From a virus: a stretch of 20,798 nucleotides of DNA. Below the pieces are notes generated by a model. The model was not told the DNA's origin, searched no databases, and was given only the letters and a program-made list of their open reading frames with translations. The stretch is from the IMG/VR virus record IMGVR_UViG_3300034106_004307, positions 1 to 20,798 of that record; one strand, written 5' to 3'. This document shows, piece by piece, positions 3,648 through 17,047 of this stretch (position 1 is its first letter; every line of letters starts with the position of its first letter). The position numbers and the translations under genes were made by a program.

Positions 3648-3854
3648 CTAGTGCTGCTTCTTGAATCTTTCGCTTAATTTTTGTACTAAATCACTGCCCG
3701 ATGTTGTAAAAAAACAAGGGAATAAAGAATGTACTATAAGATAGAATCCTGCTATTAAACAATTAACTCCATAGAACATAGCAAAAACCATATGTTCATT
3801 ATAGGTCATTTTATTTTCTTCTAAGTGTTCAGTCCACTTTTGTTTTATGCTCAT
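3648..3854 (-). CDS. Small membrane protein, DUF6356-like
   Basis: The 68-residue protein starts MSIKQKWTEHLEENKMTYNE and has one or two hydrophobic segments (FAMFYGVNCLIAGFYLIVHS, residues 24-43). A conserved-looking HSLFPCFFTTSGSDLV segment and a basic tail (RFKKQH) follow. The order H-L/P, x-M-T/S-Y-x-x-H, a membrane segment, H-x-L-x-P-x-x-F-x-T-T-x-S and a basic end matches what I remember of DUF6356 proteins, whose role is unknown. The start overlaps the end of the protease gene by 26 bp, so the two are probably translated together. The low-complexity hydrophobic part limits certainty of the family assignment. Confidence 0.7.
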   Translation of the reverse strand: MSIKQKWTEHLEENKMTYNEHMVFAMFYGVNCLIAGFYLIVHSLFPCFFTTSGSDLVQKLSERFKKQH

Positions 3855-4590
3855 TTATCCAATCCACAAATTTTGATACTCTTGTATGACCAGATTCTTC
3901 ACCATATGTAGATCTGGGACTTTTTTTACCAACACACATTAAACAAGAATTAATACCGGCTAATTTATTGTCTATAAATAGTCCACCACCACTATCTCCG
4001 CTTGCTATTAAAAATTCTAAACTCGTATATCTATCACTACTTCTGGTTGATGGTGTGCATACTAATAAGTCTCTATCTATAAAATCTATAAAGTTAGATC
4101 CTGCTCTTTTTTTATGATCAGATAATACTGCACCAGTATGAAAAGTTCCAGTTAAGCCATATCCAGATATGCAACTAATTTTTCCAACCTCGTCCGATAA
4201 AGTATAAAGTTTTGGATAAAAATCTAAACCTATTTTTTCTTCTACATAACCTAAAGCAATATCAGCAATACCAAATGTTTCTTCACTATAATCTTTATGA
4301 ACTATCACTTTCTTAGCCAGGATTTTTTTATCTTTAACTGTGATATAACATACTTTGCAGTCTTTAACAACATGAGCCGCAGTTAAAAAATGATTATCGT
4401 CAATAGCCACAGCAGATCCACAAAACATCATATCTTGCTGATTATTTCCGCACACGCTTACAACATAATTAAAATCTTTACCATATTCTATATATCTGTT
4501 ATCTGGAGTAGAAGGATCGATAGTTCCTGCAAAAACACCACTAGCACAGAAGCATAGAATATAACCTACTAAGATTTTTAATAGTTTCAT
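3829..4590 (-). CDS. Secreted trypsin-like serine protease (S1 family)
   Basis: The 253-residue protein has a Sec signal peptide (MKLLKILVGYILCFCASGVFAG, cut probably after FAG near residue 22). The chymotrypsin-fold triad follows: His73 in LTAAHVV, Asp110 in IADIALGY and Ser200 in GDSGGGLF. Eight or more cysteines in the mature part suggest disulphide bonds, so it would act in the periplasm or outside the cell. The start at 4590 is chosen over an upstream ATG (4626) because GGAGG lies 8 bases before it and the signal peptide then begins at residue 1. A stem-loop places this ribosome site in its loop. Its target is unknown; candidates are envelope proteins or competitors' receptors, which is speculation. 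Confidence 0.92.
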   Translation of the reverse strand: MKLLKILVGYILCFCASGVFAGTIDPSTPDNRYIEYGKDFNYVVSVCGNNQQDMMFCGSAVAIDDNHFLTAAHVVKDCKVCYITVKDKKILAKKVIVHKDYSEETFGIADIALGYVEEKIGLDFYPKLYTLSDEVGKISCISGYGLTGTFHTGAVLSDHKKRAGSNFIDFIDRDLLVCTPSTRSSDRYTSLEFLIASGDSGGGLFIDNKLAGINSCLMCVGKKSPRSTYGEESGHTRVSKFVDWINEHKTKVD

Positions 4591-4617
4591 CTTATAGTCC
4601 TCCAAAAAGACCATAAG
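4591..4617 (-). promoter_or_regulatory. Stem-loop presenting the protease ribosome site
   Basis: In the mRNA, CUUAUGGUC (4617-4609) pairs with GACUAUAAG (4599-4591) over 9 bp including one G-U pair. The loop holds UUUUUGGAG, so the Shine-Dalgarno GGAG is exposed in the loop and the ATG follows the stem directly. This layout suggests translational control, for example by an RNA-binding protein or a small RNA. Confidence 0.55.
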
Positions 4618-4627
4618 ATAATACACT

Positions 4628-4655
4628 ATTATCTGTTTTTTCTATCTCTTGTCAT
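4628..4655 (-). promoter_or_regulatory. Possible weak promoter for the protease gene
   Basis: ATGACA (4655-4650) and GATAAT (4633-4628) are 16 bp apart on the minus strand, each one base off consensus. They overlap the last codons of the HNH gene and lie about 40 bp before the protease start. Confidence 0.4.
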
Positions 4656-4979
4656 TATTAGATAATTAACGGCTTTTATAACACTATCTAAATTATCTCC
4701 TAGTTTTCCAAGACCAGTATTGCAAGGTTCGCAGATCCAACCCCTAAAACTATCATCAGAATGATCATGATCTAAACACCATTTGAAGGGAACTTTTCCA
4801 CAAAGTTCACAAAATTCTGGTTTTGGTGGGGCTATTTTATGTAGTCCGCTTCGTATCTTAGAATGTTTTTTAACACACTTTCTACATCTACTATCTAGAT
4901 TATCTTTGTACATACTGTGTTTAGGAAAACTTTTAAGGTTTTTTCTTTCACCACAATAAGTACAAATTTTTCTAGGCAT
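4629..4979 (-). CDS. HNH endonuclease of the recombination endonuclease VII type
   Basis: The 116-residue protein begins MPRKICTYCGERKNL. It has a zinc-binding CxxC pair near the start (CTYC), another pair (CRKC), then CELCG, the catalytic CLDHDHSDDSFRGWICEPCN block, and a GLGKLGDN tail. D-H-D-H, then F-R-G and C-x-x-C-N, is the signature of Pfam endonuclease VII proteins, many of which are free-standing homing endonucleases in phages. The start is the ATG at 4979; the longer frame would run into the tmRNA. Only two bases separate this ATG from the tmRNA discriminator base, and there is no Shine-Dalgarno sequence. Translation may therefore depend on the tmRNA precursor transcript. Mobility is inferred from the family. 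Confidence 0.9.
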   Translation of the reverse strand: MPRKICTYCGERKNLKSFPKHSMYKDNLDSRCRKCVKKHSKIRSGLHKIAPPKPEFCELCGKVPFKWCLDHDHSDDSFRGWICEPCNTGLGKLGDNLDSVIKAVNYLIMTRDRKNR

Positions 4980-4981
4980 AT

Positions 4982-5336
4982 TGGAGGCGATGGGAGTCGA
5001 ACCCATTTCTTGCGATATTTCTAATTACATCTTCTACAAGTTTATTTTATTCATGAGTTAAATTGAATTACAGAATAAACAAGACTAATCCAACCTTACC
5101 AACTTCTCTTAACCTACAACCCGTTGGATACTGTAAGTGCAGAGGGATTTGACGACAGACTTTTGATCGCTACCCTCATTCGCAATCGCAGTCTGTTACT
5201 GCCCTTTTTTGTCAGGCAGCAAGTGCTAACTGATTTGTGCCAGTTAAAGCATTTGGTAGATTTTTATAGTGGCCTTTCTACCAACCACTACTTGCTAACA
5301 TAATCTTCTATATCCAATCGATACCGTTACGCCCCC
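4982..5336 (-). ncRNA. ssrA: tmRNA (transfer-messenger RNA), one-piece form
   Basis: The 355-nt gene starts GGGGGCGUAACGGUAUCGAUUGG and ends with a T-arm (GGGUUCGACUCCC) and CGCCUCC plus discriminator A; CCA is not encoded. The acceptor strands pair over 7 bp with a G3-U70 pair, the alanyl-tRNA synthetase identity element. A pseudoknot follows (AGUGG with CCACU, UGGUAGA with UCUACCA). Twelve bases later, after UAACU, comes the predicted resume codon GGC (5241-5239). The tag frame reads GTNQLALAA and stops with UGA (5214-5212), giving a full tag AGTNQLALAA. A CUGCC/GGCAG stem around the stop and at least two further pseudoknot-like domains (GAGGG/CCCUC, AUCCAAC/GUUGGAU) complete the fold. It would rescue stalled ribosomes and mark products for ClpXP-type proteolysis. 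Confidence 0.95.
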
Positions 5337-5340
5337 TATT

Positions 5341-5907
5341 TTATATAGTACACTTTTTACACTTATTGTCAACTGTCTTATTAGATTCAATAAAATTCCT
5401 ATATACTCCCATAACTATACCACTAGTAGTTCCCACATTTAGTGAACGTACACTACCATAATGAGGAATGGTCAAAATCACATTAGCACGATCTAAAATC
5501 AGATTTGATAATCCTTTGCTTTCTTCTCCAAAAATAAATATTGGCTCAAGAGCATTATAGAACTTGTAGTGGAAAAGATTAATGGTTTTGTCATCATACT
5601 CTGGAATATTATTTTCTATTGCAATAAGGGTTCGTCCAGAACATTGCAAAAGAAAAGACTCTTCGTCTTTATGGTGATATATAGGAGTATAATTATGTGT
5701 TCCTACGCTACCTCTTTTATCCCACTTCTTTTTGCCAACATAGTGTACACTTCTAAATCCAAAAAAGTTAGCATTACGAACCATTGTGCTAAGATTAAAG
5801 TCTCCATTTATATTAATCATAGCAACACTGGCTGGTATACTAGTGCTATGACAATAATTAGCAATATCTGGAATCTCTAGTTCTTTAAGACTATCTATCA
5901 CATTCAT
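5341..5907 (-). CDS. SPOUT-class (TrmH/SpoU family) RNA 2'-O-methyltransferase
   Basis: The 188-residue protein shows all three SpoU motifs: motif 1 NLSTMVRNANFFG (38-50, with Arg44), motif 2 IFIFGEESKGLSN (123-135) and motif 3 IPHYGSVRSLNVGTTSGI (147-164). These form the trefoil-knot S-adenosylmethionine site of enzymes that methylate ribose 2'-OH groups in tRNA or rRNA. It lacks an extra N-terminal RNA-binding domain, so it resembles the compact TrmL/TrmH type. The end has two cysteine pairs (NKCKKCTI). It overlaps the preceding 55-residue gene and runs up to the tmRNA, whose promoter lies in its last codons. The substrate is unknown; a phage or host tRNA, or the tmRNA itself, are possibilities. 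Confidence 0.93.
   Translation of the reverse strand: MNVIDSLKELEIPDIANYCHSTSIPASVAMININGDFNLSTMVRNANFFGFRSVHYVGKKKWDKRGSVGTHNYTPIYHHKDEESFLLQCSGRTLIAIENNIPEYDDKTINLFHYKFYNALEPIFIFGEESKGLSNLILDRANVILTIPHYGSVRSLNVGTTSGIVMGVYRNFIESNKTVDNKCKKCTI
5345..5372 (-). promoter_or_regulatory. Promoter of the tmRNA gene
   Basis: TTGACA (5372-5367) and TACTAT (5350-5345) are 16 bp apart. The first base of the tmRNA (5336) lies 9 bases past the -10, a normal distance for a transcription start, so the 5' end may need no processing. The promoter is embedded in the last codons of the SPOUT methyltransferase gene. Confidence 0.8.
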
Positions 5908-8579: not shown

Positions 8580-9029
8580 TTAGTTCCTTATATTAGTCTT
8601 ATGAAAATTTAATACTTCTTGACATAATACAATAAACTCATCATACAATAAATTACCTTTTGCTTGATTAGCGTCTTTACAAGCAATATTACAATTGTCT
8701 AATGAGTTTTGACCGCCCCTATTTTTAGGAATAATATGATCTAAATGATAAGATTTTCCATCCAGTAAATCAATAGGACGACCAGTCAAATAACAAATAG
8801 GATTTTCTCCTATCTTAGATAGTAACTCTTGTGCTTTAAATGTCATAGAAGGATATTTCCATAATTTCTTATCTCTGTGAAATCTAATAATTTTATTCTT
8901 TAATATGGTATTTATATCAGTTTCTTTAGATGGTTTGCTAATATATGGCTGTTTCTTTTTATAGTTATCTCTATTACCTCTAAAATTTTCTAGTTTTTTA
9001 GATACTATATCTTTTATGCTTTTACTCAT
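8580..9029 (-). CDS. HNH homing endonuclease
   Basis: The 149-residue protein has a basic N-terminal half and a C-terminal HNH domain: PICYLTGRPIDLLDG, then SYHLDHIIPKNRGGQNS (catalytic D-H and H), then LDNCNIACKDANQAKGNL with the N and K of the ββα-metal fold. A single cysteine in the CYLTG turn suggests that a full zinc knuckle is absent. It is probably a free-standing homing endonuclease, inserted between uvsE (4 bp ATGA overlap) and the membrane miniprotein. The ribosome site is weak. Mobility is inferred from family and context. Confidence 0.92.
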   Translation of the reverse strand: MSKSIKDIVSKKLENFRGNRDNYKKKQPYISKPSKETDINTILKNKIIRFHRDKKLWKYPSMTFKAQELLSKIGENPICYLTGRPIDLLDGKSYHLDHIIPKNRGGQNSLDNCNIACKDANQAKGNLLYDEFIVLCQEVLNFHKTNIRN

Positions 9030-16378: not shown

Positions 16379-16407
16379 ATTATACCAGAAACCTGAGTGT
16401 TTGTCAA
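16379..16407 (-). promoter_or_regulatory. Strong sigma70-like promoter with extended -10
   Basis: TTGACA (16407-16402) and a perfect TATAAT (16384-16379) are 17 bp apart, with TGG before the -10. Transcription would start near 16372, at the start of the structured leader, and run through the longest gene run in the window. Most of the -35 and spacer (16385-16408) repeats the sequence at 6784-6807 with one mismatch. Just beyond it, TTGACA at 16416-16421 on the plus strand may serve the HNH gene, but no good -10 follows. Confidence 0.88.
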
Positions 16408-16453
16408 CTGCAACTTGACAGCATTTGGGTTTTCTGTTTTTAAGGGTCTGATG

Positions 16454-17047
16454 ATGGTTATCATTATCAAAGAATGTAGTAAGTGTAAAGAATATAAAGT
16501 TTTAGATTGTTTTTATAATGCAAAAAATAGATTGTTTAACAAAACACCGTACTGTAAAACTTGTAATTATTTAAGTGAAATTGAATACAAAAAGAAAAAT
16601 AAAGATAAAGTTTATCAAAGACGTAAAAAATATAGATCAAATAATAAAGATAAAATTAATAAAGATTGTATTACATATAGAAAAAATAATAAAAATCGAA
16701 TTAATCAAAATAAAAAAATAAGAAGAAAAACAGATGCACAATTTAAAGTTAAAGCAAATCTCAGAAATAGACTATATATGGCAGTAAAAAATGAATATAA
16801 ATCAGTATCTACTTTAGAATTGTTAGGATGTACAGTTCCGTATTTAATCAAACATTTAGAAAAACAATTTACCGAAGGTATGACTTGGGACAATTATGGA
16901 TTATATGGATGGCATATAGATCATATTTTACCGTGTGCTAGTTTTGATTTAACTGATCTAGAACAGCAGAAAAAATGTTTTCATTACTCTAATTTACAAC
17001 CTTTATGGGCGGCAGATAATATATCTAAAAAAGATAAAATTCTTTAA
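16454..17047 (+). CDS. HNH endonuclease, likely homing
   Basis: The 197-residue protein from the second of two ATGs (16454; AAGGG lies 7 bases upstream) starts MVIIIKECSKCKEYKVLDCF. It has an N-terminal zinc knuckle (CSKC, CKTC) and a lysine- and asparagine-rich linker of about 60 residues. An HNH-like end follows: WDNYGLYGWHIDHILPCASF, then CFHYSNLQPLWAADNISKKDKI. The I-D-H-I-x-P, F-H-Y-x-N-L-Q-P-L-W and N-x-x-K motifs match a family of phage and bacterial HNH proteins. It is on the plus strand within a minus-strand block and is very A-rich, as is the GIY-YIG gene, which fits a mobile insertion. Confidence 0.92.
   Translation: MVIIIKECSKCKEYKVLDCFYNAKNRLFNKTPYCKTCNYLSEIEYKKKNKDKVYQRRKKYRSNNKDKINKDCITYRKNNKNRINQNKKIRRKTDAQFKVKANLRNRLYMAVKNEYKSVSTLELLGCTVPYLIKHLEKQFTEGMTWDNYGLYGWHIDHILPCASFDLTDLEQQKKCFHYSNLQPLWAADNISKKDKIL

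Follow-up and report, generated by a model that had tools for sequence, protein, structure and literature searches.

tmRNA genes have been described in Bacillus phage G, in the mycobacteriophages Bxz1 and Wildcat, in Stenotrophomonas phage Marzo and in huge phages (PMC4131195, PMC8928761, PMC7162821), and SmpB has also been reported in huge phages (PMC7162821). Such a gene is present in approximately 2% of sequenced phages (402 of 18,146 genomes; PMC9004378), which agrees with a sequence-only reading of the locus studied here, where tmRNA was regarded as a minority trait of phages. The contact between the D-loop and the T-loop is required for SmpB binding (PMC3968760). The T-loop of tmRNA genes hosts group I introns and ssrA is an integration site of islands (PMC11915505), and U-to-G changes in the T-loop of the alphaproteobacterial type are known from Caulobacter and Reclinomonas (PMC1168896). 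In the open-access literature we found no earlier description of a single tmRNA family that alternates between elbow types. Phage tmRNA is already known; what is new here is a family with a tag signature of its own and an interchangeable elbow.

The DNA analysed (hereafter the window) is a 20.8-kb IMG/VR virus record of 20,798 nt. ARAGORN identified a single tmRNA in it, at 4982-5336 on the minus strand, with the tag GTNQLALAA*. The gene is of the one-piece type and comprises 355 nt, from the mature 5' G at 5336 to the discriminator A at 4982. A covariance-model search, the check proposed in the sequence-only reading, gave a match to RF00023 at 4979-5336 that covered the entire model (positions 1-374 of 374) with 106.2 bits, well above the gathering score of 47 (E 5.4e-41). 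The fold energy lay 4.3 standard deviations under that of dinucleotide shuffles (z -4.3), and none of 100 shuffles was as good. The complete, phage-encoded one-piece tmRNA postulated earlier was thus recovered end to end by ARAGORN and RF00023.

The individual parts of the RNA, all encoded on the minus strand, are those of a canonical tmRNA. The acceptor stem is formed by GGGGGCG (5330..5336) and CGCCUCC (4983..4989); it contains the predicted G3-U70 pair which, together with A73, constitutes alanine identity, so that by sequence the RNA is chargeable with alanine. CCA is absent from the gene, the bases that follow the discriminator A being AUA. The D-loop region UAACGGUAUCGA (5318..5329) contains the standard GG elbow partner, and the T-arm AUGGG UUCGACU CCCAU (4990..5006) a standard T-loop; the elbow of the window copy is therefore of the GG/UUCGACU type and not the AG D-loop with GGCAG T-loop of alpha_tmRNA. 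The resume codon GGC, also correctly recognized before, directly follows CUUUAACU, a context common to most relatives. It opens the tag frame at 5212..5241 (GGC ACA AAT CAG TTA GCA CTT GCT GCC UGA), which encodes (A)GTNQLALAA with the expected ALAA end, i.e. a degradation-type C-terminus followed by a stop codon.

The assumption that the tmRNA has its own promoter fared less clearly. A promoter-like site, TTGACA-16-TACTAT (5345..5372, minus strand), is located 9-36 nt upstream of the tmRNA, where it overlaps the end of the preceding SpoU gene, and transcription is predicted to start no more than about 2 nt from the mature 5' end. Two relatives (L270 and L300) retain the site, and GTGTA recurs at -17 to -14 among the relatives, where 16 of 58 distinct upstream regions contain it, compared with 1.9% of background 40-nt windows. 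However, the number of such promoter-like sites in the region (7, against 6.6 expected) is at chance level. Judged from these sequence features, promoter activity is plausible.

The window tmRNA belongs to a larger viral family. A search for relatives of ThyX led to 80 viral contigs. The tmRNA was present in 14 of the 18 closest ThyX relatives (82-88% identical), and three of the other four contigs were too short; it thus occurs in 14 of the 15 close ThyX relatives whose contigs reach the site. Screening of IMG/VR with a tag pattern yielded at least 119 stretches and, with other loci, the collection comprised at least 85 distinct sequences, at least 83 of them complete at both ends. The tags of this family, which numbers at least 83 different viral tmRNAs, follow the form G[ETNAK][NT]QLALAA. 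Since QLALAA was fixed in the IMG/VR pattern, tag conservation in that set arises partly by selection; close relatives found without the tag pattern all have tags ending in QLALAA. Of the at least 85 distinct sequences, 83 have a complete acceptor of 7 bp together with G3-U70 and A73, in the form of several different compensated stems, and conservation is higher in the tmRNA than around it (96% versus approximately 70% in L327, and 93% versus 68% in L236). A DNA search of 50,697 phage records with the window tmRNA gave no match. About 25 of the at least 85 distinct members, mostly those with unusual T-loops, were missed by ARAGORN, and phage tmRNAs are therefore probably undercounted. Two members deserve separate mention: in L097 (1501-1858) the resume codon is apparently AGC instead of GGC and the tag is SETQLALAA, while L308 (5121-5455) is a distant one-piece viral tmRNA with the tag GENQLALAA and an AG/GGCAG elbow, situated on a contig rich in tRNA genes, and represents a lineage of its own whose tag is similar.

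Three features of this family went beyond the sequence-only reading: the family-wide switching of the elbow, the neighbouring SpoU and HNH genes, and the fact that no SmpB was found. The elbow is the most informative of these for the question of function. The T-loops of the at least 83 complete sequences fall into the classes UUCRA (68), GGCAG (8), UUCGCC (3), GUCGAA (2) and UGCRA (2), each with its own D-loop partner: GG in 68/68 UUCRA forms, AG in all 10 GGCAG and UGCRA forms, and UG in all five UUCGCC and GUCGAA forms. D-loop and T-loop types therefore match in 83/83 cases (of at least 85 distinct sequences). The AG/GGCAG elbow was found in eight relatives, one of which is the divergent L308. 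On the best tree built from the body alone (nt 27-319, elbow excluded), there were 14 changes between the standard and a non-standard elbow, at least seven of them on well-supported branches; L308 and three other sequences have divergent bodies and an unsure placement, and the L270 case described below remains without them. In the supported independent pairs the D-loop changed together with the T-loop in seven of seven (p 0.016).

L270, the nearest relative of the window, provides the clearest example. The two loci are 98% identical in the tmRNA body and 94% in the flanks, and yet L270 has the AG/GGCAG elbow, with the T-arm GCGGG GGCAGAA CCCGC in place of that of the window; strong differences are confined to the two elbow pieces and a 21-nt insert. 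Across 15 independent close pairs, divergence was 18.8% in the T-arm (with this segment off by one base), 3.1% in the body and 1.9% in the 3' acceptor strand; the T-arm thus changes at about six times the rate of the body. Gene conversion of the body in a single event does not account for the co-change between the window and L270, where flanks and body both match. Chimeric assembly is an unlikely source of the odd elbows, since the 15 distinct sequences that carry them come from separate contigs. The concerted change of the elbow indicates selection on the contact between D-loop and T-loop, and is therefore the best evidence in this study that the tmRNA works; as a comparative argument, we regard it as strong evidence that the RNA is in use.

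The tmRNA is tightly enclosed by two genes of the same strand. Directly upstream, a SpoU-family RNA 2'-O-methyltransferase gene (5341..5907, minus strand, 188 aa; PF00588, E 7.5e-22) ends 4 nt short of it; the subfamily models RlmB, TrmL and TrmH gave only weak matches to the product, none over the cut-off. Of 64 related loci with sufficient sequence, 27 have a same-strand SpoU gene that ends no more than 1.5 kb upstream of the tmRNA. On the other side, the ATG of an endonuclease VII-like HNH gene (4629..4979, minus strand; PF02945, E 4.1e-12) lies 2 nt downstream of the tmRNA. Among 81 related loci, 27 have an HNH gene immediately next to the 3' end of the tmRNA (L270, L323 and L347 are examples), and even where the tmRNA bodies are 99% identical (L322 and L323) one locus may have the gene and the other lack it. 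From this distribution it looks like a mobile, homing-type gene.

Further genes of the window are worth recording. The gene at 3829-4626 (minus strand) encodes a trypsin-like serine protease that apparently has a signal peptide, with homologs near the tmRNA in several relatives, and a second GTGTATTAT promoter-like site (4618-4626) precedes it. More homing-type endonuclease genes are located at 619-1506 and 8580-9029 (GIY-YIG and HNH Pfam matches), and an HNH-like candidate of the homing type, judged by eye only, at 16397-17047. In four relatives (L242, L261, L284 and L327), CAUCUCCA...GGAGAU recurs just downstream of the tmRNA, before the next gene. These stretches possibly form a hairpin that hides the ribosome-binding site, or they might be relics of displaced tmRNA 3' ends; the relic reading is ambiguous, because in several loci CAUCUCCA can pair with the GGAGAU before the next gene.

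It is conceivable, although we put this forward only tentatively, that the T-arm is a contested, swappable module: an agent targeting the T-arm would drive its repeated replacement, and the D-loop would follow, preserving the elbow and the binding of SmpB. Candidates for the agent are a homing endonuclease, for instance that of the adjacent HNH gene, an ssrA-type intron or integrase, and a host RNase, an attribution that we likewise consider somewhat doubtful. Elbow type showed no clear association with the presence of SpoU or HNH, and the HNH gene is therefore named here as a hypothetical driver.

As regards the host, the suggestion of a Bacillus-type tmRNA is not supported. The tag of B. subtilis has 14 residues; no long GKTNSFNQNVALAA-like tag is present here, GTNQLALAA having nine encoded residues, and the listed matches of the tag pattern lie elsewhere. 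A relaxed pattern applied to GTDB genomes, which detects tags of this shape only, had Bacteroidota and one Chloroflexota record among the matches listed, and the UAACUGGC context is present in a Bacteroidota tmRNA (L149). The Bacteroidota host suggested by the tag shape is, however, weakened by the result that none of 396 Bacteroidota genomes contained a QLALAA tag, and by Shine-Dalgarno use: such sites precede a fraction of 0.42-0.45 of the phage genes (0.43 for the window), compared with 0.04 for loci of Bacteroidota. Assignment of a host through relatives of the terminase, helicase and ThyX did not succeed, the nearest isolates being remote (approximately 24-60% identity) and mutually discordant. 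In a 152-kb relative, the structural and replication genes also have remote isolate matches only.

A profile search for SmpB was negative in all 33 related records, many of which are metagenome fragments, and positive in 10 control genomes; the window tmRNA therefore probably uses the SmpB, alanyl-tRNA synthetase and proteases of the host. We consider it very likely that this RNA is a functional phage tmRNA performing host-dependent ribosome rescue with tagging. It would be transcribed during infection, probably from the sigma-70-like promoter that starts at or near the mature 5' end, after which the host would add CCA and the RNA would be charged with alanine. The charged RNA would then bind host SmpB and EF-Tu and enter ribosomes stalled on broken mRNA; (A)GTNQLALAA would be added to the nascent chain, translation would terminate at the tmRNA UGA, and the tagged product would be destroyed by host proteases of the ClpXP type. 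From these steps we infer a likely benefit for the phage, namely that ribosomes are kept cycling while host and phage mRNAs are cut.

Other roles have to be considered. The chief purpose of tmRNA tagging might be to deliver nascent host proteins to proteases as a source of amino acids, as proposed for phage Melnitz (PMC9004378), rather than to rescue ribosomes. The ALAA end fits this idea, and the absence of QLALAA from the 396 sampled Bacteroidota genomes means that the tag may be phage-specific; but every tmRNA rescues while tagging and no feature found here separates the two aims, and we regard directed proteolysis as the main role as unlikely. The lack of SmpB in the 33 records would also suit an inhibitor that competes for SmpB or ribosomes and blocks the host tmRNA, as proposed for the RNA of mycobacteriophage DS6A, given that endogenous tmRNA is inhibited by DS6A-like RNA consisting of the tRNA-like domain only (PMC4131195, PMC11915505). 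A decoy would have no need of an mRNA-like domain, tag frame, resume context and stop codon, all of which are kept here, and this makes inhibition very improbable.

Finally, ssrA is a frequent integration site of islands and prophages (PMC11915505, PMC9004378), so the gene might be an ssrA taken over from a host, or a remnant of an integration event there, useless to the phage. This is hardly credible for a complete gene that occurs family-wide, is conserved above its flanks and has a compensated elbow; moreover, no integrase was detected among the subset of window proteins scanned.

Taken alone, the window gene adds one more tmRNA-carrying phage, and it is the surrounding family that is more useful. 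Its many close pairs, in which the elbow is swapped within a nearly unchanged RNA, constitute a natural test set of D-loop/T-loop combinations, bearing on those accepted by SmpB, AlaRS, RNase P and the T-loop modification enzymes. Should mobile or defence nucleases indeed target the T-arm, tmRNA would be a further front in phage conflict, alongside tRNAs.

To conclude, the window RNA shares with the standard one-piece tmRNA (RF00023) the whole model, G3-U70, A73, the GG/UUCGACU elbow, the resume codon and a short ALAA tag; it differs in being a phage gene, in that CCA is not encoded, and in a QLALAA signature absent from the Bacteroidota genomes sampled. Unlike in huge phages, no SmpB was found in its relatives. 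It resembles Bacteroidota tmRNA in the nine-residue tag with a Gly start and an ALAA end (GxxNYALAA, GENNYALAA type) and, in at least one case, in the UAACUGGC context, whereas the phage tag reads QL at the place where NY is usual in Bacteroidota, the acceptor stems differ, and the phages use Shine-Dalgarno sites. Several relatives (L270, L236, L244 and others) have an AAAUAG D-loop and a GGCAGNN T-loop, as in the alphaproteobacterial two-piece tmRNA (RF01849). AG with GGCAG is the RF01849 consensus type, and 110 of 119 viral GGCAG T-arms occur in the permuted arrangement; in contrast, the phage RNAs described here are one-piece and the window copy has the standard elbow. Compared with the DS6A-like decoy, which consists of a tRNA-like domain only, the window RNA possesses the full mRNA-like domain and a tag frame.
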